A stretch of DNA of 41,362 nucleotides, taken from positions 1-41,362 of the forward strand of contig JAFGQA010000159.1 of assembly GCA_016935885.1 (NCBI GenBank), given 5' to 3'. Shown piece after piece: positions 1,915 to 25,151 of the stretch. Numbering within the stretch: position 1 is the first letter of the stretch; each line of letters begins with the position of its first letter. The translations under genes and the position numbers were made by a program. The notes beneath the pieces are model-generated. The model did no database searches and was not told where the DNA came from. It saw only the letters and a program-made list of their open reading frames with translations. The stretch is from Phycisphaerae bacterium (lineage in GTDB: Bacteria > Planctomycetota > Phycisphaerae > UBA1845 > UTPLA1).

Positions 1915-2780
1915 TGCGGCAGGGGCTCGAGACATCGCGACGCGGCATGACGCTGATCGAGCTGCTGTTGGCGATCGGCCTGATCGTCATGGTCTCGGCG
2001 ATGATGTTCATGTTCTACAACTCGACGTTGCGATCGCGCGACGAGGGAATCAAGGCGATGACCGATGGCCAATTGGCGCGCGTGATCGCCATGAAGATCG
2101 CCGACGAGATCCGCTCCGCGAACGGCTTTGTCCGAGACCTCGGGCCGGGCATCAGCGGGGACGAGCGGATGATCACGATTCAGACCATCGCGCTCGTTGA
2201 CAAGGAGGTGGTACTGCGGCGGTCGGTTCAGGACGAGCCGCTGCCCGGGCAGTGTGACATCCGCCAGGTTCAGTATTACCTGGCGTACGACGAGGATGAG
2301 CCTTACGTCTATCCGGATGGGACCGATTCGTTCGCGCCGATGGGATTGGTGCGCCGCGAGGTCAGGACACCGTATCAACCGGCATTGGGTGGGAGCCAGT
2401 CGGAGGAGACGGTCATCGTGGACCGTCTCGCGAAGGATTTGGACCTGCTTGCTCCCGAGATGAAGTACGTCCGGTTCCGTTACTTCGATGGCGTGGATTG
2501 GGTGGACGATTGGGACATCGCGAAGGACATCGAGGGCCAGATGGGCAACTCGTTGCCACAGGCGGTGGAGGTGACCGTCGGCTACAAGGAGCTTCCGCCT
2601 CGGGAGGAGGAGGAGGAGGACCCCGATGAAGACAAGGACCTGATTCCGTCGGAGCCGGAGCTGTATGACCGGCGGACGTTCACCGTTGTGGTGCGGCTCT
2701 CGCAGGCGGACCCGTTCCTGGGGTCCCGGCTGATGCGGGCCCAACGGCGATCGCGACTCAGCAGCGGCGAGGGCGGCTAG
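1914..2780 (+). CDS. gspJ: Type II secretion minor pseudopilin GspJ-like
   Basis: Minor pseudopilin expected to form the pseudopilus tip complex with GspI and GspK. The leader MRQGLETSRRG is followed by MTLIELLLAIGLIVMVSAMM, a textbook type III (prepilin) signal with Gly -1 and Glu +5. The core that follows (STLRSRDEGIKAMTDGQLARV) fits GspJ. ATG 1914 is preferred to GTG 1911 because GGGAGGT sits 6 bases before it; the start overlaps the gspI stop, which indicates translational coupling. The protein (288 aa) is somewhat long because of acidic inserts such as the EEEEEDPDEDKD stretch near residue 230. It is followed directly by gspK with no gap. Confidence 0.8.
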   Translation: MRQGLETSRRGMTLIELLLAIGLIVMVSAMMFMFYNSTLRSRDEGIKAMTDGQLARVIAMKIADEIRSANGFVRDLGPGISGDERMITIQTIALVDKEVVLRRSVQDEPLPGQCDIRQVQYYLAYDEDEPYVYPDGTDSFAPMGLVRREVRTPYQPALGGSQSEETVIVDRLAKDLDLLAPEMKYVRFRYFDGVDWVDDWDIAKDIEGQMGNSLPQAVEVTVGYKELPPREEEEEDPDEDKDLIPSEPELYDRRTFTVVVRLSQADPFLGSRLMRAQRRSRLSSGEGG

Positions 2781-4532: not shown

Positions 4533-4540
4533 GCGTGGCA

Positions 4541-6346: not shown

Positions 6347-7914
6347 TGACGCCTCGAGAGAGAATCCTCGTGATTCTGGTGGGCACGGCCATCGTCTTGG
6401 GCTTGGGCTACAAGGGCGTAGGCGTCCTGCTGGTCAAACCTCTCGATGAGGCCAAGAAGGGGATCGTGAGCCTGGAGGGCGAGAAGACGGAGCTCGAGGG
6501 CGTTATCCGATCTCGCATGTCGCTTGCCAGGCGCTGGCTGAACTACACGGGTCGCACCTTCTCGTTCGAGGAGGCCGAAGCCAAAAGGGGGTTCGGCAAG
6601 GAACTGAAGGAACTCGCCAAGCGGCATGGTTTCGATCATGCGGTCTTCGGCCTCAGCAGCGGTACGGCGATCGGGCGCGGGACGAACATCCGGACGGTGG
6701 GACACCGGATCACGATCGAGGGCGGATTCAGCCAGGTGATTGCCTTCCTGCGCGACCTGTACGAGACGCCTTACTTGTGCCAGATCACCAAGCTGGGCCT
6801 GTCGCCGTTGGGCGCGAAGGGCGGGCGCGGCGACGTGAAGCTTGAATTCACAATCGAGTCGCCGCTGCTTCCAAAGCTGGACTCGCAGAAGATACGCGAA
6901 GTGGCAAATGCGGCGCCAATGCCTGCCGAGCCCAAGCAACCGCTGGGCCCGGCGCGTAAGTATGTCGGGGGCGACGATCGCTATGATCTCCTGGCCAGGC
7001 GGAACATCTTTCGATCGTATCTGCCGCCACCACTGAATCTGGTGCTGATCGACAACCAGGACCGGAAGACGGTTGGCCTGAAGATCAGGTTCTTCTGGGA
7101 GGACGAGGTAAACCAGCAACTGAAGGAGTCGGTCGCGGGTACAAGTTCCTTGCCGGTCAAAGGCAACGGGGACCTCGTGGAGATAGAGGGGATCTACGCG
7201 GATGGCACGACATTTGGGCCGAAGCGGTTGGCCTTTGACGGCAAGAAGGACCAGCACTATGTGGTCAGGTCTCACACGCCCGCGCCCCCGCCGACGGTGA
7301 TCGATTTGGCCGTGGACAACCAACACTCGGAGGCGGTCTACCTGGAGGTTGTGGTGACGACCGGGGAGGGCGGCCAGAGGAACGAGCCGTTGATGATGTT
7401 TGAGCCTGGTGTTTCGGACGTTCGAGAGTACGAGGACGTCAAGTCGCTCACGGTTGCCGCGATGTATGCCTCGGACAAACGGACGCGCAGCCAGACGTTC
7501 ACGCCCGGTGAGGGCAAGCAGACGTTTGTTGTAGGGCCGGAGCCGGCTGAAGAGGTTGCCGTCGACGATCAGGGTGAAGGAGACGCCGAGCCGATCGATC
7601 CGCCGGCTGACCCGGCCTTCACGGTGACTGGTTTGGTGTACTACCCCGATCCGCTCGAGGGCGAGCGGATGGCGCAGGAGATGATCGTGAGCCGGCAAGG
7701 CGAGCGCACGATCATCCGAGTCGGGGCTGAGGGCGACGTCGACGGCGGGACGCTATTGGCGGTCGTCCCAGCACTGGGGGGCCTTGTGAGGATGCCGGAG
7801 ACGGGGAATTACTACATTTATCCATTGGGAAGGCAGTTCACGGGGCGCGTCAAGCTGGACGCCAAGGTGGATGATGATCTGCCGGCGGCCATCGACGCGT
7901 GGACTCGGCGGTGA
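6343..7914 (+). CDS. PilO/GspM-like inner-membrane protein with extra C-terminal beta domains
   Basis: Residues 1-35 hold a membrane anchor (ILVILVGTAIVLGLGYKG). A coiled coil (PLDEAKKGIVSLEGEKTELE) and a PilO/GspM-like ferredoxin fold follow, including HRITIEGGFSQVIAFLRDLY. A motif RYDLLARRNIFRSYLPPP (~residue 208) resembles the 'NLF' linker before GspC/PilP domains. Beyond it are two similar ~75-residue beta units, each ending in a 'YVV'/'FVV' strand. A last segment starting FTVTGLVYYPDPLEGE and reading NYYIYPLGRQFTG looks PilP/GspC-like. At 523 aa it is about three times a typical GspM, so it may combine the M and C jobs of linking platform to secretin. ATG 6343 overlaps the previous stop by four bases and has AGGGGGTG just upstream. 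Confidence 0.7.
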   Translation: MMTPRERILVILVGTAIVLGLGYKGVGVLLVKPLDEAKKGIVSLEGEKTELEGVIRSRMSLARRWLNYTGRTFSFEEAEAKRGFGKELKELAKRHGFDHAVFGLSSGTAIGRGTNIRTVGHRITIEGGFSQVIAFLRDLYETPYLCQITKLGLSPLGAKGGRGDVKLEFTIESPLLPKLDSQKIREVANAAPMPAEPKQPLGPARKYVGGDDRYDLLARRNIFRSYLPPPLNLVLIDNQDRKTVGLKIRFFWEDEVNQQLKESVAGTSSLPVKGNGDLVEIEGIYADGTTFGPKRLAFDGKKDQHYVVRSHTPAPPPTVIDLAVDNQHSEAVYLEVVVTTGEGGQRNEPLMMFEPGVSDVREYEDVKSLTVAAMYASDKRTRSQTFTPGEGKQTFVVGPEPAEEVAVDDQGEGDAEPIDPPADPAFTVTGLVYYPDPLEGERMAQEMIVSRQGERTIIRVGAEGDVDGGTLLAVVPALGGLVRMPETGNYYIYPLGRQFTGRVKLDAKVDDDLPAAIDAWTRR

Positions 7915-8023: not shown

Positions 8024-11000
8024 GTGATGGTTTCGTTGAATAGTCAGGATAATCGAGCAACGTGCCCGAAGCGGATCTGCGGGATCTGTTGGGGTCTGCT
8101 GCTGGCGGCGTTTGTCGGTGGAGCGATTTGCGCCTCAGCGGGGGCGGAGGATCCGCCCAAGAAGAAGCCAGTCACGACGACGAAACCGGCCAAAGAGGAC
8201 AAGGAGGCGTCCAAGGAATCGGGCCAGGAGGAGAAGGCGGCATCTGAAGGACCCGTTAAGGAGGACAAGGGCTCGTCGCAGGAACCGGCCAAGGATAGGA
8301 AGGAGACGTCCGACAAGCCGGCTGAGAAGAAGGAAGACGCCAGTGATGCGCTGGAGGAGGCAAGGCGCAAGGCGATGGCATCGATTGGGAAGCACGGCGC
8401 CGCCAAGCAGGATGCGCCTACTACTCAGGAAGCCGCCAAGGAAGAAGTTGCGAAGAAGGAATCATCGAAGAAGGAGCCCGTAAAGGGCACTACGGCCGAG
8501 GGCAAGGCGGGCAAGGGCGCACCGCCACAGGGCGAGGCACCAAAGGGGGAAGCGGCCAGGGAGGCTGATCCACCGCCGCGCCGGGAGGCCAAGGATGAAT
8601 CGGGCAAGGCCGGTGCCCGCGACGTTTCACCGGGGGCAGGCGGGGCCGAATCCAAAGGCGCCGGCAATATCGAGAAGTCGCCCGAGGTCTCGCCGCAGAC
8701 CCGACGGAGTGCCACGGCTGTGGCACCTGAGCGCCGGGACGATACGTCGCGGGCTGGCCCCAGGGTGGTGGGGCCGAAGCACGTCGGCGGCAAGAGCGTG
8801 GCTGGTGTGAAGGAGCGAGGCGGGGTTCGGAGGAGCGCGGCGAAGAAACTGAGCAGTCCTGACCGGCAGAGCCCGAGTCGTGATCGCAAGTTGGGCGGAC
8901 AAGAGCCGCGGCGCAAGCTGCGTCCGCTGAAGGGTGCTGAGCCCAAGATGCCGGTACAGGCCGATTCGGCGGAAGACGAAGCGGACGAGACCTCACTGGC
9001 ACCTTTGACGGACACCTCGACCACGATGATCAAGTTCGAGGTGACGGCGTCGAATCCTGAAGACTGCCTGTACCGCTTCGACTATGACAGGACGCCGTGG
9101 TCGGATGTGTTGGCGGATTTTTCCCGCATGAGCGGTCTGTCCTGGTTGAGCGAGCCGGATCCGCCGGTATCGGGCGACGTGACGTTCCGAAGCCCGCGTG
9201 ACTTCACCTACAAGGAGGCGATGCGTCAACTCAATGAGCTGCTGCTGGCTCGGGTCTTGGATAAGTACCTGATTCAGCGGAGGGAGAACTACCTGGAGAT
9301 CAAGCGGCTTGCGGATTGGATGCGGGACATCCCGCCGGAGAAGATGTTCAGTGACTTCGACGCCATGGAGGCGACGAATCCAGACGATTTCGACATCGTG
9401 CTGGTGTACATCGACGTCCCGGAGGGGTGGACCGGGTACGACGTGATCGAGGCGTTCCGGCCGATGTTTTCCGACACGTACGGCACGCAGGTTCGAGGCG
9501 ACAAGATCGAGTTGACCGGTCTCGTGCGGGAGCACCGCCGATGGCGGGACGTGATAGGGAGGATGGTGAAAATCGGGCCGCAGGAAGGACCTCCGCAAGA
9601 CGACATGCGCGTCACGCTGACGATTCCGTTGAAGTCGGTGAGGGCCGCCGACGCCCAGACGACGTTGAAGCAACTGTATCCTGTCAGCGCACCCGTGCGC
9701 GTGGGAAAGCGGGGGACGGGACCGGGCATCGATCACAACCAGGACATGAACAACAAGATCGAAATCGTCCCGGACATACAGAACAACAGGTTGTTGATCA
9801 AGGCGGCGCGGCACAAAGCGGCGGAGATTGCTCAGATGGTTGAGAATCTCGACAGCGGCTCGCCGCCGGCGCCGCCACAGATGAAGGTGATCAGGCTTGA
9901 ACACGCCAGCGCGGCCGACGTGCAGGCGCAGTTGAAGCCAATCTTCCAGAGCCAGCAGGCCTCGACGGGTGGTGGCAAGCGAGGCGCCGGGCCCTGGGTG
10001 CCGGAGGAGATCGAGAGGGCCCTGGATCGCGACATCATCGCTGAACCGGGCAGCAACTCGGTCATCCTGATCGGTAGCCCGGAGGGCATCGCCAGTGCCG
10101 AGCAGTTGGTCAAGGAGCGAGACGTGCCGGACTCGAATTGGGTCAACGAGATCATCGAGTTGCAGCACGCCAAGGCCGATCACATCGCCGCGATGGTAAC
10201 GGGTGCCGTGTCGTCGGGTGTCAGGGGCCCTGGGGGCAAGATCGTCGCGGGCGGCCGCGAGCGTGAGATCGTGCCGCGGACGAGCACAACGCTGCTGGTG
10301 TCGTGCGGCAAGCACGAGCTGCCAGAGATTCGTGAACTCGTGGCCAAGCTCGACGTGCCGCAGGACGACGAGGCCGTGGAGCACCTGGTCAGGCTACAGG
10401 CGGCCACGCCCAGCGTGATAGCGCCGATTCTCCAGCAGCTTTTCGCCGAGAGTAACGCGCCGCGTGTGACGCCCCGAAAGGGCCAGCCCAGCCGTCCGCC
10501 GATCGGCGCAAGGACGCGGTTTATCCCCGTGGACGCGACCGGTCACCTGATCGTCTATTGCAGCGACGAGGAATGGGAGCGGGCCGAGCCACTGATTGAG
10601 GAGCTTGACAAGCAGGAACAAGGCAGTCAGCCGGTCCTGCGGACCTTCACGCTGAACAACGCCGACGCGTCGGACGTGGCGGGCATGTTGGAGAGCATGT
10701 TCCCGCCCCCGCCGATGGAGAAGGGCCAGATGCCATCGCGGCAGCAGATCACGGCCGACCCGTACCATAACACGGTCCAGATCTTCGCCGGCGCGGACTT
10801 CATCGAGAAGGTCTCGCCGCTGATCGAGCAACTGGACATTCAGACGGAGGAGCTGACGGTCATCCACTTGCAACACGCCAAGGCCGTGGACGTGGCACCG
10901 GTTCTGACACAGATTTTCGGTGGCAGGGGGGGCGCCCCCGTGGTGTCTCGCCCGAGGGTCAAAGGCCGGCCGCAACCGGCGAGCCCCGCTTCATCCGGCG

Positions 11001-14000
11001 GGTCGGACGTGAGTATCGTGGCCGAGCCGATCACCAACTCGCTGCTGGTGACCGCACCGCCGAAGGAGCTCGAGCGGATCCGGGATCTTGTGGCGCAGAT
11101 GGATGCAGGAGCAGAGGTGGCGCGTGTCATTCTTGAGGCCGAGAATCGCCCCGCGGCGGAGGTGGCCGAGACGTTGCAGAGCCTGATGGGCCCGGCAGCG
11201 CCGAGCCGCGCGGTCGGCAAGCCGGGCGTCGTTCCCGGGGCATCGAGTGTCGGCGGCGAGGGTTTGAAGATCCTTGCCGATGGCAACCGCGTCATCCTGG
11301 AGGGCACGCACGAGGACGTGGCGAAGGCGGTGCAGTACTTCGACATCATCGATGTGCTCGACCAGAAGCCGATCAGCAAGAAGTACTACGTGATGGACGC
11401 GGAGGAGGATGAGAGGAAGCTGCGGGGGCTTCTGGGCAGCCCCGTTGCGGGGAAACCAGCGGCCGGCCCAGCCGGCGGAAGGCGGGGCAGGTCCGCACCT
11501 CCGTCGGCGCCCACATCAAGCGCGGTCCAGATCGTGGCGGATACGTACGAGAACACGCTGTTGATCCGGGCGATGCCGAGCGAGTTCGTCGTCATCGATG
11601 AGCTGCTGACCATGATGCTGAGCGATCCTCAGAAGATCCCGGGATTGGCTGAAGAAATTGAGCCGCTCGAGGGATTCTTCGTCTATCCGCTCAAGTACGT
11701 GAAGGCCTTCGACATCGCGTGGACGCTCGAGGACTTGGTGAACACAGGCCCCAAGAGCACGATTCAGTTCGACGAAGGTCCGGATGAGCGGATCCTGCTG
11801 GTCCGCGGGTGCAAGCCGGCTCAACGGGAGATGGTTGAGAAGTACATCGAGATGTTCGACATCCCGAGCGGCACGGCCCTTCCCGCGGATACGTTGGTGA
11901 TCGAGACGGACAAGATGTCGGGCGAGCACATGATGCAGATGATCCTGACGCGCTACCCGAATCCGAACAAGCGGCAGATTCGCGTATTGGATACGGGTTT
12001 CACGACGGGCAGGGTCCAGATCATCGACGTTCACGAAGGGGAAGAGGAGAAGGAGGAACAGAAGAAGGAACAAGATAAGAAAGAAGAAGAGAAGAAAGAC
12101 GAAAGGGAACCGGAAGCCGTTCCCGTCAGCTTCGCCAATCCCTGCGTGCTGCCATTGAGCCTGCTGAACAGTCTGCCGGCGCTCGTTCTTGGCCAGTCGA
12201 TTGCGGCCGGCCATGACAAAGAACCGGCTGATCCGCCGGTCGCGGCTGCTGACGATGAGCATGCCGGTCCGACGGCGGCACCCGCCGAGGAACCGGTCGC
12301 ACGGCCGGTGCCGAATGAGGGTCGCCGGTTACAGGCACCGCCTGTTCAAGCCGCGGATGCTCCGACCACAGCCCCAGAAGATGATGCGGGGGCGATCAAG
12401 ATGTTTGTCGATCCGTTCACCGGCAAGTTGATTGTGGAGGTACCGGAGGACGAGAAGGACTTCTTCCAGAACTGGCTCGATGATCTCACGGGCGGCAAGG
12501 CCCCGACGGTCTATTGCCAGTTCCCGCTCAGGTATGCGGACGTGAGCGCTGCCGCTCAGCTTCTGAATGACATCTTCAACCAGCCGCAGGCGCGGGTGCA
12601 GCGGCAGCGGACGCCACGGCAGCAGCCGGCGCAGCCCGGCGCCCAGGGAGCGAAGGGCGATCAAAGGGGTGGGAGGCCGCAGCCGCAACAGCCGGTTGCG
12701 CCTGAACCGGTTCCGACGCGGATCAAAGTCGTGCCCGATTCGCGGACGCGGAGCCTGTTCGTGGTGGCACCTTTGTCCGACATTCCAGCGATCAGCGAAG
12801 TGCTGAAGATCTACGACAGTCCGGTGGAGGGCGTCAGGACCATCAAGTTCTTCAAGTTGGTCAACCTTGACGCGACGCAGGTTGTGGAGAACCTGCGAGA
12901 GATACTTGGTCTGGGCGCGACCGGCCGCAGCCGTCGAATGCTCCCCCAGCCCCGTGGTCGTGGTCAGCAGCCTTTGACGCCGCAACAGCAGCAGCAGATG
13001 CTGCAAATGCAGGGCCAGCAGGGTCAAGGCACGATGGTGTCATCCGAGAACGTGAAGCTGACAGCCGAATCGCAGACCAATTCGATCATCGCCCAGGCCC
13101 CGCCGGACACGTTGGAGCTGATCGGCAGTCTGATTGCCGAATTGGAGAAGGAGACCAACACCACCAGGATCGAGATGAAGCGCGTGCAGTTGGTGCGTGC
13201 CCGGGCGACCGAGGTGGCCACGATCGTCAAGGACGTTGCCGGCCAGATGGTGTCGGGCGCCGGTCCTGGCGCAGGTGGTGGCGGGCGGCGCGGAAGCGGC
13301 AGGGTGTCGGTCAACGCCGACGCGAGGACGAACAGCGTTATCCTCGCCGGGGAAGTCAAGGACCTCGATCGCGTAGAGGGGATCGTCAAGGATCTCGACG
13401 TGGATGACGGCAGCGGTTCGGCGATTAAGCAGTTCGCCGTCAAGGGCGATCCGAGGGCGACGGCCGACACGTTGAGGGCGCTCTTCGCGGGGCGCGGCAC
13501 GCAATCGGACATCGTGATCACGCCGAACGACGCGACCGGCGTCGTGCTGGTCAAGGCCCCGTTGCCGCTGATGGCCGAGATCGAGAAGCAGATCGTCGAG
13601 ATGGACGCGAAGGTGGAGGCCGAGAAGGCCCTCCGCGTGATCAAAATGGAATACGCCGACGCCGAGGTGGTCGCGAGGAACTTGCAGACGATCTTCGGCG
13701 AGTCCGGCGCCAGGCGGGGCCGATCCGGTCAGAAGATCAACATCAGTGGCAACAAGGCCAACAAGACGCTGTACGTGCAGTGCCCTGACGACCGGTTCGA
13801 GGAGATTAAGCAGGTCGCGTTGGGTATGGATAAGGCCCCGGAGGCCCTGCAAGTCAAGCCGTTCCAGCTCAAGTACGCCTCCGCGATCGCCGTCCACAAG
13901 CAGCTCGAGACGTTGATGATGCAGGCGGCGAGAACGCACGGGATGGGCGATGTTCAGTTGGACCTGATTGGCGTTCTGCCTGACGCGCGAACGAACTCGC

Positions 14001-17000
14001 TGATCGTCAGCGGCGGGCCGCTGACGTTTTTGCTGATCGACCAGGTGCTGGCCGCGGTGGACGTGGAGCCGGAGACGCCCGTCAAGATCGAGACGAAGAC
14101 CTATACGCTGGCGCGATCGCTCAACGCAGGGGACGTTAAACGAAACATCGACGAGCTATTCCGGAACGAGGACCCCAGGACCACTGGCGTGGAGAAGCCC
14201 GTCGTGACCGCGAACCAGGCGGGCAACGTCGTGACCGTGAAGGCCAACAAGACGCAGCACGAGGAGATCCTGAAGAACATCATCGAGCCGGTGCAGACCG
14301 CGGTCGGGGAGCCGCTCGAGGATTACCAGGTGAAGCTGCAATATGCCCGGGCGGACGAGATCAAGCCGACGCTCGAGGAGTTCATGAACAAGTGGCGGCA
14401 GAGCCGGGGCAATAAGCCACAGGACGGTTTCACGATCACGGCGGACCCCAACAGCAACCTGCTGCTGCTCAACTGCTCGCCAAGCACGAAGGCGGTGTTC
14501 GACAAGCAGCTTGCCGAGCTTGACACCGAAGTCAGGAAGGGGCGCGACCGGATCGTCCGGCGGTACTCCTTGAGGTTCGCCAACCTTCAGACCGTCGTCA
14601 ATGCCGTGACGCAGGCCTTCCGGCGGCCGGGGCGCGTGTCGCCGCGCGACCAGGTGGACGCCAGCCTGGATTGGGACACGAGTTCGGTGGTTGTGCTGGC
14701 CAGCGAGGAGAACCACGAATCAGTCGCGGAGATGGTCGCCGCCATGGATGTGGAGGTTGCGGCTGGCGGCCGCTTGACGCGGACGTTCACGTTCAAGTAT
14801 GCGGAGCCGTGGCAGATTCCGAGGGTGATCAACGAGCAATTTCGAACAAGGAGCAAGAATCCGAATGACCAGGTGACCGCGAGCTATATCAACGGCACGA
14901 TGTCGGTCGTCGTCTCGGCAGACGAGCTGAGCATGGAGAAGGTGGCAGAGTTCATCGAAGGGGTGGACGTGCCCTCGGAGGACGAGAAGATCACCAAGTA
15001 CATGCGACTGAAGAATGCCCGAGCGGACACGGTGGCCAACGTTCTGAACCAGGCGCACCGAAACTCGACGCCGCGGACGCCGACCGGTGTGTACCCCGAG
15101 AACTACGCCGCGGAGATGAGCACGAACACGTTGATCGTGACGGCGCCGCAGAACCGGTTCGAGGAGATCGAGAAGACCATCGCCGAGTTGGACGTGGTCG
15201 ACAGCGGCGGGCGCGTCACGCGGACGTTTACGCTCAAATACGCCGAGCCGTGGTACATGCCCGGCATCATCAACGCCCAGTTCGCCAATCGGTTCAGCAA
15301 GAACCCGAATGACCAGGTGAACTGCAGCTACATCAACGGCACGATGTCGGTGGTGGTGACAGCCAGCGAGGATAACATGCAGAGAGTCGCGACGTTCATC
15401 GAGGAGGTGGACGTGCCGTCGGCCGAGGGCGAGAAGATCACTAAGCTGTTCAAGCTGAAGAACGCCCGCGCCGACTCACTGGCCAACATTCTGAACCAGG
15501 CGCACCACAACTCGACACCGCGGCCTCGCGACGGGATTTACCCAGTTACGTACGCCTGTGACATGACCAGCAACATACTGATCGTGACGGCGCCAGCGGA
15601 CAGGTTTGAGGAGATCGAGGCCCGCGTCGTGGAGTTGGACGTCGAGGACGGCACCCGAGCTACCCGGACGTTCAACGTTCGCTATGTGGCTCCGTGGACG
15701 ATGGCCAACATCATCAACCAGCAGTTCCGCAGCGGGAGCCGAAACCCAAACGACCAGGTCCTCGCCAGCTTCGAGGACGGCACGATGTCCATCATCGTCA
15801 CGGCCAACGAGCGGAACATGGCCCAGGTGGCCTCCCTGATCGAGGAGGCTGACAAGATGCCGGCCTCCGGCATGAAGGAGACGCGGTTCATCAAGCTGAA
15901 GAACGCCCGGGCAGACGAACTGGTGCGGCCGTTGACCGAGGCGGTTCAGGCCAAGACGACGCCGGACCGCCGAGGCCGTTACCCGGTGACCATCACTGCC
16001 GACGTGGCCTCGAACAACCTGATCGTCACGGCGGTGATGGACATGTTCCCGGAGATCGAGAACATGGTCGCGGGCCTGGACGTGGACCAGGGCGATCGGC
16101 TCCGCAAGGTGTTCAAGCTGACCTATGCTGATCCGGGCTCGGTCTCGCAGATGATTCAGAACGTCTTTCGGCCTGTGGGCCGGAATCCCTCACCGCGCGA
16201 CCAGGTGGCCAGTTCGGACGACTGGACGACCAACAGCGTGATCGTCACGGCGTCCGAGGAGAACATGGCCGAGATCGAGAAGCTCCTCGAGGAGATGGAT
16301 GCGCCCGGCGATGAGATGCGCACGCACCACGTGATCGAGGTGGCCAATTCCAACGCAAACGACGTGGCGCAGAGCTTGCAGCAGATCTTCGACGCCGCCA
16401 ATCGCGGTCGGCGCGGACAGCGAGCCTCGGCCACGATCCGGGCGATTGGAGGCACCACGAAGCTCGCCGTCTATGCCAACGCGGAGGAGATGAAGCAGAT
16501 AGAGACGCTCGTGCAGCAGATCGACGTCGAGGGCGGCAAGATCGTGCACGCCGTGCCCATGCCTGAACTGGTGCCCGCCAAGAGCATCGCGGAGAACATC
16601 AACAAGATCTACGGTTCGAGCCGTGGGCAGGACGGCATCCGGGCCGAGTTCCATGAGCCGACCAACACGCTGCTGGTCTTCGCCACCGATTCGGAGTTCG
16701 ACCGGATCAACGAGCAGGTCATCAAGGTGCTGAGCGAGCGGCCCACCATCGGCGAACTGAAGATCCACAAGATTCCGCTGAAGAACGCCGTGGCCGACGA
16801 GGTGGCCCGGACGTTGCAGGATTTCTTCGACAAGAAGGCGGGCGTTCAGCGCGGTGGGGGCTCCAGGCCGTGGTGGACCGAGCAGTCCGCCGAGAAGCAA
16901 CTGGAGAATCAGGTCACCGTCATCGCCGAGCCGGCGAGCAACATGCTGATCGTCTATTGCACCGACACGACCAAGGAGATGATTGACGATCTGCTGGCCG

Positions 17001-20000
17001 ACATCGACAGCGATGAGCCTCTCAACGAGCGGGTCATGAGAATGGTCGCCCTGAAGTACATGGACGCCAGCGAGATGCTGGACATCCTGACCGAGTACCT
17101 GAAGGTGTCGAAACGCACGAAGGAGGACACGAGCAGCAATCTTCCGTGGTGGATGCGCGGCCGTGGGAGCCAAAACCAGGAGGAGAAGGTCGTGCTGGTG
17201 GGCGACATGCGGCTGAAGGCGGTCGAGTCGTCGAACTCGATCATCGTCGTCGGCCGGCCCGATGGCGTCGCAGACGTGCTGGCGAAGATCGAGGAGATGG
17301 ATGTCGAGGACGCCCAGGGCGCGAACGAGCCGCAGACGATCGTCTTGAAGAACGCCAACGCGACCGAGATGGCCGACACGCTGGAGCGGACGTTCTGCGA
17401 TCCGAGTAGGACGAAGACGCGTGGCAGCAGCTACGTGGCACCGACGATCGTGGCCGTCGAGGCGACGAACAGCATCATGGTCGTGGCGAAGCCGCAGGAA
17501 TTCAACCTGATCAAGAAGGTGGCGGAGGATCTGGATTCCGAGATGGTGGATACGAGCGGCGTGCAGTTGCTCCGCGTGCCGGCCGGACGGGACGTGGAGG
17601 AACTGGCCCGGATGATCGAGGAGCAGATCAACGAGGCCGAGGACAACAAGAAGTCGGTCAACAAGAACTACCGGCCGAGCCACGTGAAGATCACAGCCGA
17701 CGCGATCTCGAGTACGCTGCTTGTCGCGGGCGCCAAGGCCCAGTTCGAGGATGTCGAGCGGCTGGTGAACGAACTCGTCGCGAGGGGCCCCGCGGGCGGC
17801 AGGGTGCGGCAGGTGATCCCGCTGGAGAACATGTCGCCGGAGAAGGCCAAGCAACTGATTGAGCAGCTTCAACAGGGCAGTTCCGGCTCGAGCAGCCAGG
17901 GCAGCCGGCGGACCGGCGGCGGGCGTGGGCGCCGCGGCGACGCCGGCTGGACGCAGCATCGGCGGTATGAAAAGAGCATTGGGTGCGAGAAGGGATTCTC
18001 GCACCAGCATGTGTGTTCATGCGGTTGCCTCCGGCCTGGGCGCCCCCCGGCCAAGGCCGGGGGCTCTTGGGGGCAGACGGCGTGTGCCGCGACGCTGCCG
18101 GGCTTCTTGGCCCAGGTCTCGTTGAGCACGGCGATTGCGCAGACGTCGACCACGCAGCCGGCCGAGAAGGCGAAGAAAACCGCGCCCGTGGTCAGCAAGA
18201 TTCGCCCGAGGAAGAAGGCGGGGCAACCTCCCAGCGGTGAGCAGGAGACGGCGCAACGGGGCCGGCGCTCGCCTGGAGGCCACGCGGAGCGAGTGCCGCC
18301 TATGACACCCGAGGAGCGGATTCGCGCGACGACGCAGCCGGCCGGCGTGGCCAGCTTGTCGGACTCCGCAAAAAACGCGATTCAGAAGCGTTTATCCGGC
18401 GCGCCGATCGATATCGCCGAGGCGGGCCCCGGTGCCATCATCTTCGAGGGAAACGCGGAGGATCTGGAGGTTGTCCAGTCCATCCTCAAGATGCTCGACA
18501 CGGCGATTCCGGAGAAGTCGATCGAGTACGTCAGGCTGGAAAGCGCCCGGGCGACGGACCTGGCCCAGACGTTGCAGGACGTCTTCAAGAAGATCGAGAA
18601 GGTGGGCGACCGGGCGGTTCAGCCTGAGGACATCGTTGACGTGATCGCCGACGCGCGGACGAACGGCATCTACATCGCGGCGACTGAGGACAAGATGGCG
18701 CAGGCGTTGGCTTTGATCGAGCGCAATGAGGCGGCGGCTGCCGACGTTACCAAGAACGTCCGCCGATTTGTGTTTGAGAATCGCCGCGTGTCGGAGGCCG
18801 GCGAGACGCTCAAGAAGATGGTCACCTCGTATCTGAAGCAGAAGAAGCTGCCGGTGGATGCCATCGGCATCGAGGTGGACCCGCAGACGAACTCGGTCTT
18901 TATCACTGGCGGCGAGAACGATCTGGACTTCGTGGAGCAGCTCCTTGATGGCCTGGACGCGGAGTTGCCGGACGAGGCGGACCTGAAAGAGGGGGCCAAG
19001 CGGTCGATGCAGGAGGCCGACATCATGATCGTTCCGCTCCGCGTGGCCGACGCGAACGCGCTGGGCGGGTTGCTCAACGACCTGTTGCAGAAGGCCGCCA
19101 CCGGCGACACGCCGATGAAGGACTTCATTCGGCGGATGCGGATCTTGGACGAGAACGGCGAGCCGATTGCCCAGATCGACCTGAACCGTCCCATCGTCGT
19201 GTTCGGCGACCCGGATAGCAATTCGGTGGTCATCGCCAGCAGTCGGGATAATTGCCTGATCATGAAGCAGGTGGCCAAGGCGTTCGACAAGGAGCCCGCC
19301 CGGGCGGAGGTCCGCCACGTGGTGATGGACCTTGAGTATGCCGACGCGACCGAGGTGGCCGAGCAACTGGGCAACCTGTTGCAGGAGAGCGAGTCGCTGA
19401 CGAAGCGGCCCGGCAAGAGCGAGACGTTCGGCGTGCCGGAGGGCGTGTCGGGGGCGTTGGTTTATTCAGCGGTCGTGAAGCCGGACGCCCGGACGAACCA
19501 GGTGATGATCGTCGGCCGGCCGGACTCGGTGGAGATCATCGAGGGGCTGGTCAAGGAGCTGGACGTCAAGGGGCTGGACGTGATGCCGTTCGAGATCGTG
19601 AAGCTGGAGTTTGCCAGCGCGACGGCACTGGAGGAGGCCCTGACGGACATGATGGAGAAGCGGGCGGAGGCCCTTCCCAAGGGATCGGGCCCCAACGCCG
19701 AGAACGCCGAGAAGGTCATCATCCGTGGCGACCCACGGACCGAATCGTTGATCATCGCGGCCAAGCCGGCGCGGATGGAGGAGCTTCGCGGGCTGGTCAA
19801 GAAGCTGGACATCCCCGCGTCGGCCCTGATCGAGAACATTCGCACGATCACGCTGAAGGAGTCCAGCGCGACCGACCTGGCGGACAAGTTGAAGGACCTT
19901 TGGGAGCAGCGGAAGAACCAGCGCGAGGGCGGCACCGGGTCTCTGAAGCTTGAGATTCCCGCCATTGTGCCGGACGAGCGCAGCAATTCGCTGATCGTCG

Positions 20001-23000
20001 CGGCGAACAAGGCGGACTTCGATGCGATCAAGGCCGTCGTGGACAAGATCGAGGCCCTTGAACTGAACCCGATGGCCAACATCTACATCGTGCGGCTTCA
20101 GTACAACTCCGCCAAGCAACTGGCCACGGCGTTGAGCGCGCTGTTCCAGAAGCGTGCCGAGATGCGGACCGTCGACAGCAAGCCGCGGCCAGAGGACGAG
20201 GTCGAGATACAGGTAGACGAGGTGACGAACTCGCTGTTGGTGGCCGCGTCGAGGGAGAACTACGAGGTGCTGGTGCAGAAGGTCGAGGAACTCGATCGGG
20301 AGATCGGCGTGCCCGGTCAGGTCGAGTTCTTCGTCTGCGACAACGTCGGCGCCTACCGGATCAAGGAGACGATCGACGAGTTGTTCAAGGACGGCGTGTT
20401 CAAGTCCGGCGGCACGGGGGAGAGCGAGATCGCCAAGGAGCGAGAGAGAGTGACGATCAGTGTCGACGATCGGTCGAACATCCTGATCGTTTCGGCCAGT
20501 CCGGAGAATATGGAACTGATCCGCGAGATCTACAAGCGGATGAACAGCGTCACCATGCCCTGGGACGTGGCGATTACGAAGCTGATCGTCATCGAGCACG
20601 GCGATGCGGTGAAGATCGCCGCGCAGGTGGATGACTACTTCGAGAAGCTGAAGGACATCCGTCAATCGGGCGGCGACAGCGGCACGAGTAAGTCCGGCTT
20701 CGAGATCACCGTCTTCGCCGACGAGCGGAGCAACCGGATCATCGTCGGCGGGACCAAGGACGGCATCGACAGCGCGGTGGAGATGGTCCGCAAGCTGGAC
20801 GTGCCGCCAGGCGTGCCGGGTCAGATCGTCGAGGTCTATACGCTGACGACGGCCCCGGTCGCCAAGATCGGCGAGATGATCGACAACGTCTTCCAGGAGC
20901 GCAACAAGAGCCGCTCTGGCGCGACGGGTCCCAACGTGGAGCCCGTCAAGGTCACCGTGGAGCCCAATGAGACGAGCAACAGTCTGCTGGTGAACGCCAC
21001 GAAGGAGGACCACATCCTGATCGCGGACCTGATCAAGCGATTGGATTGCCCCAGTGCCTTGCTCCAGATGGTAAGAGTTTTCCCGTTGGAGAAGGCCCGG
21101 GCGGAGAAGCTCAAGGAGATCATGGACGAGCTGTTTCAGGCGGGACGCGCCGGCGGCACCGGGAGCAGCGGTCAAACCATCGCGGTGGTTGCCGACAAGC
21201 GGACGAATGCGGTCGTCGTGGCCGCCCCGGCCGGCGAGTTGGAGAACATCGGCCAGCTCGTGGCACGCCTCGATCAGGCTGACATCAAGGTCAACGCCGA
21301 GGTGGGCATCTTCCCGTGCGAGAACGAGGACGCCGAGAAGATGGTGGATCTGCTCAACGGCATCATGTCCGGGGATGTACAAGGTGGCGGCGCGAAGGAG
21401 GATGAGGAGATCCCGGGCGTCGATTCCATGCTGATCTCCTTTCAGACAGAGGACGAGCGCGGCAGGAAGCTGCTGCTCGAGACCATCCGCGAGAACGTGC
21501 AGATCACCTACAATGTGCGGTCCAACAGCGTGGTCGTGATCGCCCCGCCGTCGTCGCTTCGTTTGATCGAACAGTTGGTCCGCAAGCTCGACCGGATCCA
21601 GAAGCGTTCGGTGGTAGTTAAGGTCTTTCAGCTTGTCAACGCCGACGCAACGCGAATGATCGAACTGCTGGAGGACATGTTCGCTTACGAGGAAGGCTCG
21701 GAACAGGAGCGCGAGTTCCAACGTGGCCGCGAGATGCAGGTCGAGGGTGGAGTCAGTGGGACGGGAGGCGTTCCGTCGGCGGCGTCGCAGGAAGGCCCGA
21801 CGCGGCAGGGCACCTTCGGCCGGCCGAAGACCACGTTTGTGGCCGACGAGCGGACGAACTCGATCATCTCCGCCGGTTGGCCGGAGGACATCGACGTCGT
21901 CGCCGACATCATCGACCAGCTCGACTCCCGCACGATCCAGGAGCGTGACAACGTGGTTTATACGCTGGTCAACATGGAGGCGGAGGACATGCAGACCGCC
22001 CTGGATTCATACTTCCAGGCCGAGCAGGCACGGCTCGATCGTCTGGGCGATTCGCTCTCGCCCCAGCGTCGCATGGATCAGGAGGTTTCGATCGTCGCCC
22101 ACAAGGAGTCGAACCAGCTCATCATCTCCGCCAGCCCCCGGTACAGGTCGCAGATCTTATCGGTGGTCGAGCAGCTCGACCTGCCGCCGCCCCAGGTCAT
22201 GATCCGGGTGTTGATCGCCGAAGTGCAGCTCGACGACCGGTTCCAGATGGGTCTGGAGTTCGCCCTGCAAGAGCTTCGCTTCAGCGAAACGGCGGTCCCC
22301 GGCGGCAACGGGGTCCTGCAAAGCAGCCATTTCGACGTCGTCGGCGGGACGGACCTGGGGGCTGCTGGGACCGGCGTGGCCGGCTTCAGTTTCACCATCA
22401 CGGGGGAGGATTTCAACTTCCTCGTCCGCGCGTTGCAGGCCGACTCCCGCCTCGAGATCATCCAGCGGCCGATGATCATGTGCCAAGACAATCAGGAGGC
22501 CAGCATCGACCTGGGGCAGAAGGTCCCGTTTGTTCGTGGCACGCAGGTTACCTCAACCGGTCAGGTGACCAGCCAGGTCGAGTACGAAGACATCGGGATC
22601 AAGCTCGAGATTGAGCCAAACATCAATCCGGATGGTTTTGTGTATCTGCATGTCGTGCAGGAGATCTCCTCGATTGCCGAATCGACGATAGATATCGGCA
22701 ACGGCGTTTTGGCACCGGTCTTCAACAGCCGCATCGCCGATACGTGGGTGGCGGTGAAGGACGAGGAGACGGTTGTCATCGGCGGATTGATCGAGACGAT
22801 CGAGAGCGAGAGTGAGAGCAAGGTGCCCTTCCTGGGTGACATTCCCGGTTTGGGTGTGCTCTTCCGGACGACCAGTCGCCTGAAGAACAGGAGGGAGCTG
22901 CTGATCGCCATGACGCCGAGGATCGTTCGCACCGTCGAGGACGGCCGGCGGCTCTCAATCGAAGAACGTGACAAGGCCGGCATCATCACGGACAACATGA

Positions 23001-23251
23001 AGCAGAGCCCGCTGTTTGAGCGGTTGCAGGTGTTGCCGGAGGACGAGCAGGAATTATTCGACATCGAGGCGCCGCCGGATGCCACCGAGCCGGCGGGGCG
23101 ACCAAGGCGGACGGAGCCGACCGAGTCCAAACCCGAGAAGAAGTACGGTCCCAAGGCCCCGCGGTACGGTCCGCTGGCGCCCGCGGGCGAGGACGTGATC
23201 GCACGGCGTGGCCGTGGCCGGGCGACGGCGAACGTCGCTGTCGGCCCGTAG
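8024..23251 (+). CDS. gspD: Giant secretin (GspD-like) with ~45-49 N1-type modules
   Basis: Outer-membrane secretion channel, 5,075 codons against ~650-700 for GspD. Order: signal peptide (residues ~1-41, ICWGLLLAAFVGGAI, ASA-GA cut); Lys/Glu/Pro-rich stretch to ~330; N0-like domain (~335-425); then a continuous array of ~70-110-residue secretin_N (NolW/N1) modules to ~4720. Each module reads roughly as hydrophobic strand, 'LxxAxAxxVAxxLxxLF' helix, variable loop, 'ADxRTNSLIVxA', helix, 'LD'. The array ends in one intact secretin domain (~4721-4970) with IIQRPMIMCQDNQEASI, LGQKVPFV and VPFLGDIPGLGVLFRTT, followed by a Pro/Lys-rich tail. Two long insertions split modules (~1337-1452 and ~3284-3459). 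GTG 8024 or ATG 8027 starts it, behind GGAGG. It is the last T2SS gene here and has no internal stop. Family certain; the oligomer's shape is unknown. Confidence 0.95.
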   Translation: MMVSLNSQDNRATCPKRICGICWGLLLAAFVGGAICASAGAEDPPKKKPVTTTKPAKEDKEASKESGQEEKAASEGPVKEDKGSSQEPAKDRKETSDKPAEKKEDASDALEEARRKAMASIGKHGAAKQDAPTTQEAAKEEVAKKESSKKEPVKGTTAEGKAGKGAPPQGEAPKGEAAREADPPPRREAKDESGKAGARDVSPGAGGAESKGAGNIEKSPEVSPQTRRSATAVAPERRDDTSRAGPRVVGPKHVGGKSVAGVKERGGVRRSAAKKLSSPDRQSPSRDRKLGGQEPRRKLRPLKGAEPKMPVQADSAEDEADETSLAPLTDTSTTMIKFEVTASNPEDCLYRFDYDRTPWSDVLADFSRMSGLSWLSEPDPPVSGDVTFRSPRDFTYKEAMRQLNELLLARVLDKYLIQRRENYLEIKRLADWMRDIPPEKMFSDFDAMEATNPDDFDIVLVYIDVPEGWTGYDVIEAFRPMFSDTYGTQVRGDKIELTGLVREHRRWRDVIGRMVKIGPQEGPPQDDMRVTLTIPLKSVRAADAQTTLKQLYPVSAPVRVGKRGTGPGIDHNQDMNNKIEIVPDIQNNRLLIKAARHKAAEIAQMVENLDSGSPPAPPQMKVIRLEHASAADVQAQLKPIFQSQQASTGGGKRGAGPWVPEEIERALDRDIIAEPGSNSVILIGSPEGIASAEQLVKERDVPDSNWVNEIIELQHAKADHIAAMVTGAVSSGVRGPGGKIVAGGREREIVPRTSTTLLVSCGKHELPEIRELVAKLDVPQDDEAVEHLVRLQAATPSVIAPILQQLFAESNAPRVTPRKGQPSRPPIGARTRFIPVDATGHLIVYCSDEEWERAEPLIEELDKQEQGSQPVLRTFTLNNADASDVAGMLESMFPPPPMEKGQMPSRQQITADPYHNTVQIFAGADFIEKVSPLIEQLDIQTEELTVIHLQHAKAVDVAPVLTQIFGGRGGAPVVSRPRVKGRPQPASPASSGGSDVSIVAEPITNSLLVTAPPKELERIRDLVAQMDAGAEVARVILEAENRPAAEVAETLQSLMGPAAPSRAVGKPGVVPGASSVGGEGLKILADGNRVILEGTHEDVAKAVQYFDIIDVLDQKPISKKYYVMDAEEDERKLRGLLGSPVAGKPAAGPAGGRRGRSAPPSAPTSSAVQIVADTYENTLLIRAMPSEFVVIDELLTMMLSDPQKIPGLAEEIEPLEGFFVYPLKYVKAFDIAWTLEDLVNTGPKSTIQFDEGPDERILLVRGCKPAQREMVEKYIEMFDIPSGTALPADTLVIETDKMSGEHMMQMILTRYPNPNKRQIRVLDTGFTTGRVQIIDVHEGEEEKEEQKKEQDKKEEEKKDEREPEAVPVSFANPCVLPLSLLNSLPALVLGQSIAAGHDKEPADPPVAAADDEHAGPTAAPAEEPVARPVPNEGRRLQAPPVQAADAPTTAPEDDAGAIKMFVDPFTGKLIVEVPEDEKDFFQNWLDDLTGGKAPTVYCQFPLRYADVSAAAQLLNDIFNQPQARVQRQRTPRQQPAQPGAQGAKGDQRGGRPQPQQPVAPEPVPTRIKVVPDSRTRSLFVVAPLSDIPAISEVLKIYDSPVEGVRTIKFFKLVNLDATQVVENLREILGLGATGRSRRMLPQPRGRGQQPLTPQQQQQMLQMQGQQGQGTMVSSENVKLTAESQTNSIIAQAPPDTLELIGSLIAELEKETNTTRIEMKRVQLVRARATEVATIVKDVAGQMVSGAGPGAGGGGRRGSGRVSVNADARTNSVILAGEVKDLDRVEGIVKDLDVDDGSGSAIKQFAVKGDPRATADTLRALFAGRGTQSDIVITPNDATGVVLVKAPLPLMAEIEKQIVEMDAKVEAEKALRVIKMEYADAEVVARNLQTIFGESGARRGRSGQKINISGNKANKTLYVQCPDDRFEEIKQVALGMDKAPEALQVKPFQLKYASAIAVHKQLETLMMQAARTHGMGDVQLDLIGVLPDARTNSLIVSGGPLTFLLIDQVLAAVDVEPETPVKIETKTYTLARSLNAGDVKRNIDELFRNEDPRTTGVEKPVVTANQAGNVVTVKANKTQHEEILKNIIEPVQTAVGEPLEDYQVKLQYARADEIKPTLEEFMNKWRQSRGNKPQDGFTITADPNSNLLLLNCSPSTKAVFDKQLAELDTEVRKGRDRIVRRYSLRFANLQTVVNAVTQAFRRPGRVSPRDQVDASLDWDTSSVVVLASEENHESVAEMVAAMDVEVAAGGRLTRTFTFKYAEPWQIPRVINEQFRTRSKNPNDQVTASYINGTMSVVVSADELSMEKVAEFIEGVDVPSEDEKITKYMRLKNARADTVANVLNQAHRNSTPRTPTGVYPENYAAEMSTNTLIVTAPQNRFEEIEKTIAELDVVDSGGRVTRTFTLKYAEPWYMPGIINAQFANRFSKNPNDQVNCSYINGTMSVVVTASEDNMQRVATFIEEVDVPSAEGEKITKLFKLKNARADSLANILNQAHHNSTPRPRDGIYPVTYACDMTSNILIVTAPADRFEEIEARVVELDVEDGTRATRTFNVRYVAPWTMANIINQQFRSGSRNPNDQVLASFEDGTMSIIVTANERNMAQVASLIEEADKMPASGMKETRFIKLKNARADELVRPLTEAVQAKTTPDRRGRYPVTITADVASNNLIVTAVMDMFPEIENMVAGLDVDQGDRLRKVFKLTYADPGSVSQMIQNVFRPVGRNPSPRDQVASSDDWTTNSVIVTASEENMAEIEKLLEEMDAPGDEMRTHHVIEVANSNANDVAQSLQQIFDAANRGRRGQRASATIRAIGGTTKLAVYANAEEMKQIETLVQQIDVEGGKIVHAVPMPELVPAKSIAENINKIYGSSRGQDGIRAEFHEPTNTLLVFATDSEFDRINEQVIKVLSERPTIGELKIHKIPLKNAVADEVARTLQDFFDKKAGVQRGGGSRPWWTEQSAEKQLENQVTVIAEPASNMLIVYCTDTTKEMIDDLLADIDSDEPLNERVMRMVALKYMDASEMLDILTEYLKVSKRTKEDTSSNLPWWMRGRGSQNQEEKVVLVGDMRLKAVESSNSIIVVGRPDGVADVLAKIEEMDVEDAQGANEPQTIVLKNANATEMADTLERTFCDPSRTKTRGSSYVAPTIVAVEATNSIMVVAKPQEFNLIKKVAEDLDSEMVDTSGVQLLRVPAGRDVEELARMIEEQINEAEDNKKSVNKNYRPSHVKITADAISSTLLVAGAKAQFEDVERLVNELVARGPAGGRVRQVIPLENMSPEKAKQLIEQLQQGSSGSSSQGSRRTGGGRGRRGDAGWTQHRRYEKSIGCEKGFSHQHVCSCGCLRPGRPPAKAGGSWGQTACAATLPGFLAQVSLSTAIAQTSTTQPAEKAKKTAPVVSKIRPRKKAGQPPSGEQETAQRGRRSPGGHAERVPPMTPEERIRATTQPAGVASLSDSAKNAIQKRLSGAPIDIAEAGPGAIIFEGNAEDLEVVQSILKMLDTAIPEKSIEYVRLESARATDLAQTLQDVFKKIEKVGDRAVQPEDIVDVIADARTNGIYIAATEDKMAQALALIERNEAAAADVTKNVRRFVFENRRVSEAGETLKKMVTSYLKQKKLPVDAIGIEVDPQTNSVFITGGENDLDFVEQLLDGLDAELPDEADLKEGAKRSMQEADIMIVPLRVADANALGGLLNDLLQKAATGDTPMKDFIRRMRILDENGEPIAQIDLNRPIVVFGDPDSNSVVIASSRDNCLIMKQVAKAFDKEPARAEVRHVVMDLEYADATEVAEQLGNLLQESESLTKRPGKSETFGVPEGVSGALVYSAVVKPDARTNQVMIVGRPDSVEIIEGLVKELDVKGLDVMPFEIVKLEFASATALEEALTDMMEKRAEALPKGSGPNAENAEKVIIRGDPRTESLIIAAKPARMEELRGLVKKLDIPASALIENIRTITLKESSATDLADKLKDLWEQRKNQREGGTGSLKLEIPAIVPDERSNSLIVAANKADFDAIKAVVDKIEALELNPMANIYIVRLQYNSAKQLATALSALFQKRAEMRTVDSKPRPEDEVEIQVDEVTNSLLVAASRENYEVLVQKVEELDREIGVPGQVEFFVCDNVGAYRIKETIDELFKDGVFKSGGTGESEIAKERERVTISVDDRSNILIVSASPENMELIREIYKRMNSVTMPWDVAITKLIVIEHGDAVKIAAQVDDYFEKLKDIRQSGGDSGTSKSGFEITVFADERSNRIIVGGTKDGIDSAVEMVRKLDVPPGVPGQIVEVYTLTTAPVAKIGEMIDNVFQERNKSRSGATGPNVEPVKVTVEPNETSNSLLVNATKEDHILIADLIKRLDCPSALLQMVRVFPLEKARAEKLKEIMDELFQAGRAGGTGSSGQTIAVVADKRTNAVVVAAPAGELENIGQLVARLDQADIKVNAEVGIFPCENEDAEKMVDLLNGIMSGDVQGGGAKEDEEIPGVDSMLISFQTEDERGRKLLLETIRENVQITYNVRSNSVVVIAPPSSLRLIEQLVRKLDRIQKRSVVVKVFQLVNADATRMIELLEDMFAYEEGSEQEREFQRGREMQVEGGVSGTGGVPSAASQEGPTRQGTFGRPKTTFVADERTNSIISAGWPEDIDVVADIIDQLDSRTIQERDNVVYTLVNMEAEDMQTALDSYFQAEQARLDRLGDSLSPQRRMDQEVSIVAHKESNQLIISASPRYRSQILSVVEQLDLPPPQVMIRVLIAEVQLDDRFQMGLEFALQELRFSETAVPGGNGVLQSSHFDVVGGTDLGAAGTGVAGFSFTITGEDFNFLVRALQADSRLEIIQRPMIMCQDNQEASIDLGQKVPFVRGTQVTSTGQVTSQVEYEDIGIKLEIEPNINPDGFVYLHVVQEISSIAESTIDIGNGVLAPVFNSRIADTWVAVKDEETVVIGGLIETIESESESKVPFLGDIPGLGVLFRTTSRLKNRRELLIAMTPRIVRTVEDGRRLSIEERDKAGIITDNMKQSPLFERLQVLPEDEQELFDIEAPPDATEPAGRPRRTEPTESKPEKKYGPKAPRYGPLAPAGEDVIARRGRGRATANVAVGP
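12033..12380 (+). other. Insertion 1 in the giant secretin, splitting a module
   Basis: About 115 codons without N1 character. First comes an almost pure Glu/Lys run (starting EGEEEKEEQKKEQDKK), then a hydrophobic, signal-like stretch (PCVLPLSLLNSLPALVLGQ), then a Pro/Ala linker (PTTAPEDDA). The half-module before it (ADTLVIETDKMSGEHMMQMI) lacks its second half. That half appears after the insertion as IKMFVDPFTGKLIVEVPEDE. The insertion therefore sits in the variable loop between the two halves. Confidence 0.6.
14770..16305 (+). repeat. Recent two-module tandem duplication inside gspD
   Basis: Two module types alternate here. Type A carries KNPNDQV and INGTMSVVV-like strands; type B carries LKNARAD and NQAHxNSTP. 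The GGACGTT start of type A recurs at 14781, 15222 and 15666, spacings of 441 and 444 bases (147 and 148 codons). The flanking modules (from ~14533 and to ~16305) share PRDQV and ASEEN, so the unit spread outward from this point. Elsewhere in the array neighbouring modules are much more diverged. Confidence 0.85.
17982..18005 (+). repeat. Perfect 10-bp hairpin inside the gspD frame
   Basis: GGTGCGAGAA, loop GGGA, TTCTCGCACC: a perfect 10-bp stem. It lies in insertion 2 and is translated. It has no T-run after it, so it is not a standard terminator, but it is out of place in a coding sequence. Confidence 0.75.
18043..18073 (+). repeat. GC-rich hairpin block, copy in gspD (family C)
   Basis: A 31-bp block whose core is CCCCCGGCC-AA-GGCCGGGGG followed by CTCTTGGGGG. 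It is identical to 39999-40029 in the molybdenum hydroxylase gene. Here it is read as PPAKAGGSWG; there it is read in another frame. Confidence 0.85.
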
Positions 23252-24853: not shown

Positions 24854-25151
24854 ATGAGAGTCTACGGCTGTCAGTTCTCTGTAGCGATCGGTTCTCGGTG
24901 AGCAGGAAGCTACCGAGCGAAGAGCTGATGACCGACGACGACATGTATCCAATAGCGAGTGGCGAATTGCGAATAGCGAAATCCTGCACTAGAGCACTTC
25001 ACGGTCGGATGCACCTGTGGCACCGCCGTCTCGGCGGTGGATTCGCGGGCGAGACGCCCGTGCCACAGTCGCAGGCAAGCGTGAACCGCTCTATCCTCGC
25101 GTCGCCATTCGCCATTCACCATTCGCAATTCGCTGCACCGGAAGCCCGGCC
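24854..25151. other. Intergenic region holding a nested palindromic element
   Basis: No gene. A reading frame in phase with the next gene is open from 25017, but its codons come from repeat sequence (RRWIRGRDARATVAG and AIRHSPFAIR types). Most of the interval is the element at 24962-25133. Confidence 0.6.
24962..25133. repeat. Nested REP-like palindromic element (family E)
   Basis: The outer ends are a perfect 13-bp inverted repeat: GCGAATTGCGAAT (24962-24974) and ATTCGCAATTCGC (25121-25133). Inside lies a second inverted pair, CTGTGGCAC (25015-25023) and GTGCCACAG (25060-25068). It encloses two short hairpins, ACCGCCG-TCT-CGGCGGT and GGGCG-AGA-CGCCC. The hairpin-plus-GTGCCACAG design is shared with family A (32615-32635). 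This looks like a REP doublet (BIME-like). No RAYT transposase gene is in the window. Confidence 0.7.

Follow-up and report, generated by a model that had tools for sequence, protein, structure and literature searches.

The window analysed here, a 41,362-nucleotide stretch of DNA from a Phycisphaerae bacterium (contig JAFGQA010000159.1, positions 1 to 41,362), contains an open frame of 5,075 codons that runs for 15.2 kb without a break (8024-23251, + strand) and whose product we confirmed to be a secretin with a very long array of N1-type modules and one channel domain. The ATG at 8027 is the preferred start, lying one codon after the beginning of the frame and 7 nt downstream of a GGAGG, which places the gene at 8027-23251; the protein of 5,074 aa is present as database entry P0002. 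An earlier note on this DNA had already described one unbroken 15.2-kb frame, and a chance control bears this out: in 30 sequences generated from the window by a first-order Markov model, the longest stop-free run was 577 codons. G+C content within the gene is 84.5% at third and 42% at second codon positions, a contrast that gives the frame the look of a translated gene. Its features are as follows.

8027..8149, + strand: signal-peptide-like N-terminal segment of the giant secretin, read by eye from the sequence
8141..9019, + strand: charged, Pro-rich low-complexity linker of about 290 residues between signal peptide and N0-like domain, from the translation
9029..9319, + strand: N0-like domain (weak), PF21305 at E 0.26, below cut-off, in a region conserved in the alignment of relatives
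9389..9577, + strand: possible divergent first module, residues 456-518, from the by-eye pattern of the translation; the own profile found none here
9629..22180, + strand: array of N1-type (Secretin_N) modules, residues 536-4719, from Pfam and the own profile
11690-11860, + strand: weak module within the array, from the own profile
11888..12487, + strand: joint 1, a module split by an insert (halves 11888-11959 and 12392-12487, insert 11960-12391)
17807..18499, + strand: joint 2, a module interrupted by an insert of 186 residues (b1-a1 at 17807-17875, b2-b3-a2 at 18434-18499)
18086..18139, + strand: signal-peptide-like hydrophobic stretch ending TAIA, with a predicted cut before Gln 3373 (18140), aligned in relatives
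22430..22930, + strand: secretin (channel) domain, PF00263

The modules were counted with a profile built from the window protein's own modules and, independently of it, by running Pfam on the two halves of the protein with Secretin_N matches listed to E 10. Pfam Secretin_N (PF03958) returned 20 and 24 stretches in the two halves, so that far more than a few modules match the family, and the own profile found 44 clear modules at E ≤ 2.2e-10, one weak module (residues 1223-1279, E 0.16) and half-matches to two modules, at about residues 1289-1488 and 3262-3492, each of which is broken by a long insert. The total is thus 47 N1-type modules, or 48 with the divergent candidate, within the 45-49 that the earlier note had proposed. 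Modules start at a median spacing of 81 residues, the linkers between them measure 12-18 residues in 38 of 44 gaps, and both gaps of more than 200 residues are the two joints. The single channel domain claimed before was recovered as one PF00263 stretch (E 3.3e-49); the last 1,075 residues pass the GspD equivalog TIGR02517 (460.1 bits, cut-off 351.35) and miss the PilQ model TIGR02515 (233.7 against 284.35). The N0-like domain of the earlier note stands on weaker ground, since the PF21305 matches of the window and of its relative L039 (E 0.01) both lie below the cut-off, and PF21305 is precomputed in the database for several distant giants. The AlphaFold2 model resembles GspD chains of the type II secretion system (T2SS), and the closest solved structures are GspD chains.

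To an origin of the array by misassembly, or of the frame by chance, we give next to no credence. Every 25-mer of the 15.2-kb gene is unique, and the Markov control argues against a chance frame. When 1,227 database candidates of suitable length were scored, 405 proteins of 2,791-8,881 aa, the window's own and 404 others, matched at E ≤ 1e-10. Giants are also encoded in one frame in assemblies that consist of a single contig of 3.9-4.3 Mb (L039 on CP070772.1, and genomes G124 and G147). Module order is kept: in 10 relatives with 43-70% identity to the window protein, the modules pair mostly reciprocally and collinearly with its own, apart from a variable zone at about modules 19-25. The best module-to-module matches within a protein have a median identity of 28-34%, and of up to 48% in distant giants; in relatives below 35% identity module order is largely lost and is kept near the channel.

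Two insert-bearing joints in the array, one of which resembles an internal signal peptide, had been overlooked in the earlier note. Both inserts lie in the loop that joins helix 1 to strand 2 of their module. The insert of joint 1 (residues 1289-1488 with its flanking half-modules) contains CVLPLSLL..LVLGQS at 12137-12199 (+ strand), and a C-x-L-P-xx-[LMI] motif at 24-30% of the protein length was found in 40 of 70 nearer relatives, in three of 103 other giants and in 10 of the 18 upstream chains of split genes. Joint 1 may thus be a second signal-peptide-like site, although its hydrophobicity is modest and L110, with a clear signal-peptide-like start, is the sole gene cut there. As a separate observation, the joint-1 insert carries a conserved Cys motif, PC-[VAM]-LP-x-SL, to which several relatives add CP[VI]C..xPC.

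The insert of joint 2 (residues 3262-3492 with its half-modules) typically contains, besides a basic and a hydrophobic stretch, a small-x-small site with Gln directly after it, as in P0030, where ...RKATVVASTLPVLMMQVAFSTAVA is followed by QTT. A hydrophobic 15-residue window was present at joint 2 in 96 of the 99 giants for which the profile found both flanks in one chain. A plain hydrophobic-window scan was dropped for the loop controls because module strands and helices pass it too, and we instead applied a joint-2 rule of our own making, not a trained predictor, that asks for the hydrophobic stretch together with the small-x-small site and Gln. This rule was satisfied by 65 of 70 nearer relatives (the window and 64 others) versus two of 1,388 control loops of at least 30 residues, and both passing control loops are joint-like, one being P0060's own joint 2 and the other a mid-array loop of L038. 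The 70 nearer rows, and 27 more distant ones considered below, were defined by score thresholds rather than by the tree. Gln after the signal peptide is reported to be typical for Bacteroidetes (PMC5837995). An internal translation start at joint 2 was considered and rejected: ten fused sequences share no conserved start codon ahead of the hydrophobic stretch (L087 has none within 60 codons, the window a single GTG without a Shine-Dalgarno motif), which makes separate translation unlikely in the fused forms.

The joint-2 insert of the window also holds a 31-nt hairpin-like DNA element, CCCCCCGGCCAAGGCCGGGGGCTCTTGGGGG, at 18043-18073, where it reads RPPAKAGGSWG; the same element recurs at 39999-40029 (and partially at 40048) within a molybdopterin-dehydrogenase-like gene, and P0003 has the peptide PPAKAGGS twice in its joint-2 insert. 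The element looks like a small interspersed repeat tolerated in protein loops.

In relatives, the same sites are gene boundaries. The sister clade of the window's clade comprises 20 rows: 17 score as split at joint 2, and contig ends cut off the other three. In 15 of the 17 the upstream chain stops 11-52 aa after the first half of the joint-2 module, often ending in an Arg-rich tail. The gene that follows opens in most cases with a signal-peptide-like segment and continues with the second half-module, as in L004 (MLKRSILGWVLAGAVLLPQPLFA followed by Q, by eye); a few starts, e.g. those of L003 and L017, are less clearly signal-peptide-like. L110 is cut twice, into 9 + 14 + 15 modules, and its first cut matches joint 1 by position and by eye. 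In a more distant clade the L135 gene is cut independently in mid-array, into 19 + 24 modules. The giant open reading frame of L038, which belongs to the same distant clade, has a signal-peptide-like mid-array loop of its own at residues 2063-2180, after module 22 (...SAVLAASLAVMPAAA followed by Q). On the basis of the L038 loop and the L135 cut, the joints may have several origins, that is, the phenomenon may have arisen more than once. Two Verrucomicrobia loci with an additional module frame upstream of the secretin frame (L065, L070) were excluded from the split set, as was L034, which has N runs or frame breaks of assembly type, appears as 'short' in the tree and represents a giant broken by an assembly gap.

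Module number and total length vary little with the number of genes (one, two or three) that encode the protein. The 13 complete split systems of the sister clade total 4,149-4,759 aa with 35-45 modules, compared with 4,335-4,900 aa and 38-42 modules in nine fused loci of the window's clade, the window itself being longer (5,074 aa, 47 modules). L010, which also has N runs or assembly-type breaks, was kept without treating its middle break as biological, and the gap is part of its summed length. These similar totals favour one continuous structure, in which length matters and the chains meet at the joint modules. The tree was made by a quick method that leaves the order of the three clades unresolved and does not root split versus fused forms, so that fusion is as possible as fission.

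Giant size is a trait of a lineage and is not universal. We compared 80 loci from named records, after dropping 12 loci obtained twice and leaving loci open at their 5' end out of the complete counts, and in these uncut, unsplit genes of Phycisphaerae type have 30-50 modules. Among the 405 matching database proteins, the 120 listed for module counting are 4,044-6,165 aa long and have 34-64 modules by the own profile. Overall the giants thus have 30-64 modules and come mainly from Phycisphaerae; a few are titled Planctomycetales or Planctomycetia (L008, L024), or Planctomycetota alone, and were placed among the giants in the tree. Seventeen loci of Planctomycetia type, with record titles such as Pirellulales, Gemmataceae, Planctomycetaceae and similar (two just Planctomycetota), form one clade with 5-12 modules and 1,116-2,265 aa, and the loci from other phyla, whose secretin frames measure 460-873 aa, have 1-4 modules there. 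The window's channel domain was used as query against the 148 genomes of the class of genome G001, to which the genomes bearing the Phycisphaerae loci L016 and L030 also belong, and 91 matched at E ≤ 1e-30. The best-matching frame exceeds 3,000 aa in 35 of these, measures 2,381-2,816 aa in six and 1,556-1,843 aa in 15, and is shorter in the other 35, some of which are cut by contig ends. In the class of genome G004 (Gemmataceae), 41 of 59 genomes match, with frames of 655-3,269 aa.

Apart from this, module numbers of 49-51 recur in distant giants (L030, L037, L038, L039, L059, L123, L126, and likewise L128, L129, L130, L132 and L133), as though length were nearly fixed; clade-mates of these, e.g. 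L131, L036 and L041, have just 30-32 modules.

The genes upstream of the giant secretin in the window, all on the same strand, are the following.

925..1914, + strand: GspI-like pseudopilin (TIGR01707 E 1.1e-4 and NF047828 E 5.2e-7, both below cut-off; no Pfam match)
1911..2780, + strand: GspJ-like pseudopilin (PF11612 E 1.2e-4 and TIGR01711 E 3.2e-4, both below cut-off)
2781..4532, + strand: GspK-like pseudopilin (PF21687 E 3.9e-11, above cut-off; NF037980 78.4 bits, below)
4535..6346, + strand: PilM/GspL-like platform protein (PF11104 E 1.1e-21, above cut-off)
6343..7914, + strand: GspM-like protein (no Pfam match; BLASTP E 2e-14 and 23% identity to L016:7866-9059)

The L016 gene matched by the last of these lies just before the L016 giant and itself matches PF10741 GspM at E 1e-4, barely above the cut-off. 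A GspF gene was found within about 15 kb of the giant in five of eight genomes (G001, G002, G003, G005, G221), and GspC (PF11356) was above its cut-off in none of the eight, with weak matches at E ≤ 1 in four. Judged by its gene content, the row of GspI-, GspJ-, GspK-, PilM/GspL- and GspM-like genes together with GspF in relatives, the giant's neighbourhood is a type II secretion cluster. A short distance downstream of the giant, at 25017-26489 (+ strand), we also noted a VKOR-DsbA-like fusion (disulfide formation).

Taken together, we hypothesize, with a probability of roughly 0.6, that the protein is a T2SS GspD with about 47 modules that forms a long periplasmic shaft of up to three chains, the second joint of which is possibly cut. 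The usual few N1-type modules of GspD would have grown to about 47 and would stack as one long periplasmic shaft, from the inner-membrane platform at the N0-like end to the outer membrane at the secretin end, reaching a height of roughly 120-190 nm if each module formed its own ring at 2.5-4 nm (a range of our choosing) and guiding a long pseudopilus or cargo. With less certainty, each protomer may comprise as many as three chains meeting within one shared module. For the window's clade, joint 2 would then act as an internal signal peptide, maybe cut by signal peptidase I after export, the two chains staying together through the completed module. In its boldest form, that of a polyprotein cut by signal peptidase I inside a domain, with half-modules joining the two or three pieces into a hollow shaft of more than 100 nm on whose length, rather than on the number of its chains, selection acts, the proposal strikes us as unlikely.

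Several observations weigh against this hypothesis. The internal hydrophobic stretch may stop export rather than be cut. In just seven of the 17 split systems does the downstream flank of joint 2 match best close to where the downstream chain starts, and in the remaining ones another module outscored it. Seven of the 27 more distant fused rows pass the small-x-small and Gln test, the stretch usually still being hydrophobic, and the 70 nearer rows are all related, with at least four duplicates (P0022/L083, P0052/L082, P0062/L001, P0050/L007), so that 65 of 70 does not represent 65 independent cases. A single frame of more than 3,000 aa was found in 35 of the 148 genomes of the class of G001, hence the giants are not universal there, and when six genomes were searched whole, the four that bear giants contained 19 further secretin frames, 442-1,704 aa long, that exceeded the Pfam cut-off. 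Finally, the AlphaFold models are middling (mean predicted local distance difference test scores of 65.7 and 67.0; predicted template modelling scores of 0.32 and 0.40), with a multi-domain root-mean-square deviation of about 8 A or more, and therefore do not establish how one module is oriented to the next.

Alternatives concern both the joint and the shaft. The chain could remain uncut, joint 2 being a fossil signal peptide retained in a disordered loop after two or three genes fused, a possibility that we take seriously while holding it short of even odds. That the site coincides with a gene boundary and a signal-peptide-like start in relatives fits such a history, as do the degraded version in the more distant fused rows and the unresolved branching order of the clades; a fossil would, however, be expected to decay, and in the nearer relatives the stretch and its small-x-small site with Gln have persisted while the rest of the insert is far more variable. 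It is also conceivable, if doubtful, that there is no straight stack of rings, most modules making up a tether or coat that is flexible or folds back, with rings formed by just the last few under the channel. Such an arrangement would sit well with the far shorter secretins encoded in the same genomes and with the longest stack that we met in the literature, the six rings of Thermus PilQ (PMC5745081), yet the uniform linkers, the ordered modules and the similar totals despite gene splitting suggest a precise structure.

Where the extra height would be accommodated also admits more than one answer. The earlier note had offered a very deep periplasm, a folded-back array or a sheath or scaffold as explanations; these are not separable here, except that a uniformly very deep periplasm is unlikely given the 19 shorter secretins in giant-bearing genomes, unless those serve elsewhere. 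A periplasm that is deep only locally, or membrane invaginations spanned by the giant-secretin system alone, is a tentative option to which we lend less than even weight: the published work that speaks for it concerned Planctopirus, Gemmata and Rhodopirellula rather than Phycisphaerae, and described Phycisphaeraceae are without crateriform structures (PMC8882080). The periplasmic part of a secretin must bridge both membranes, so that the series of 30-64, 5-12 and 1-4 modules makes a link between secretin height and envelope directly testable. If true, a conserved gene boundary or internal signal peptide in mid-domain would represent an uncommon solution for making a very long export channel, and also for moving a 5,000-residue protein across a membrane piecewise. 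The class is mostly uncultured and its secretion hardly covered in the literature found.

Among the open-licence PMC matches listed (a search in which 'secretin' also catches 'secreting') no paper dealt with giant or many-module secretins; the accessible parts of PMC3422733 and PMC11131199 contain nothing on them, and PMC11266412 gave no term match. Fitting internal signal peptides were likewise absent from the titles and abstracts of the PMC matches listed. Relative to these listed matches, the parts of the system are known, and the number of modules, the joints within modules and the internal signal-peptide-like segment are new.

GspD usually has the periplasmic modules N1-N3. Like GspD (PulD, ExeD, EpsD), the giant secretin combines a C-terminal channel domain and N1-type modules with a T2SS gene cluster. 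Unlike GspD, it has about 47 modules in place of N1-N3, the loci compared here from outside Planctomycetota having 1-4 per secretin frame, and two of its modules are broken by long inserts, with a signal-peptide-like segment inside the protein; it is about seven times the usual length. A structural precedent is Thermus thermophilus PilQ, which in PMC5745081 is described as having six stacked rings N0-N5 plus the secretin in a 350 A long assembly of 757-residue chains, and which its authors rate among the largest characterised. Both share an extended periplasmic series of b-a-b-b-a modules, which would be stacked in the giant too, whereas Thermus PilQ has six rings and works in type IV pilus assembly and DNA uptake rather than in type II secretion. 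A further comparison is with the medium-long secretins of Planctomycetia type, which lie in the same tree and, with 5-12 modules, have about 4-9 times fewer than the window's giant.
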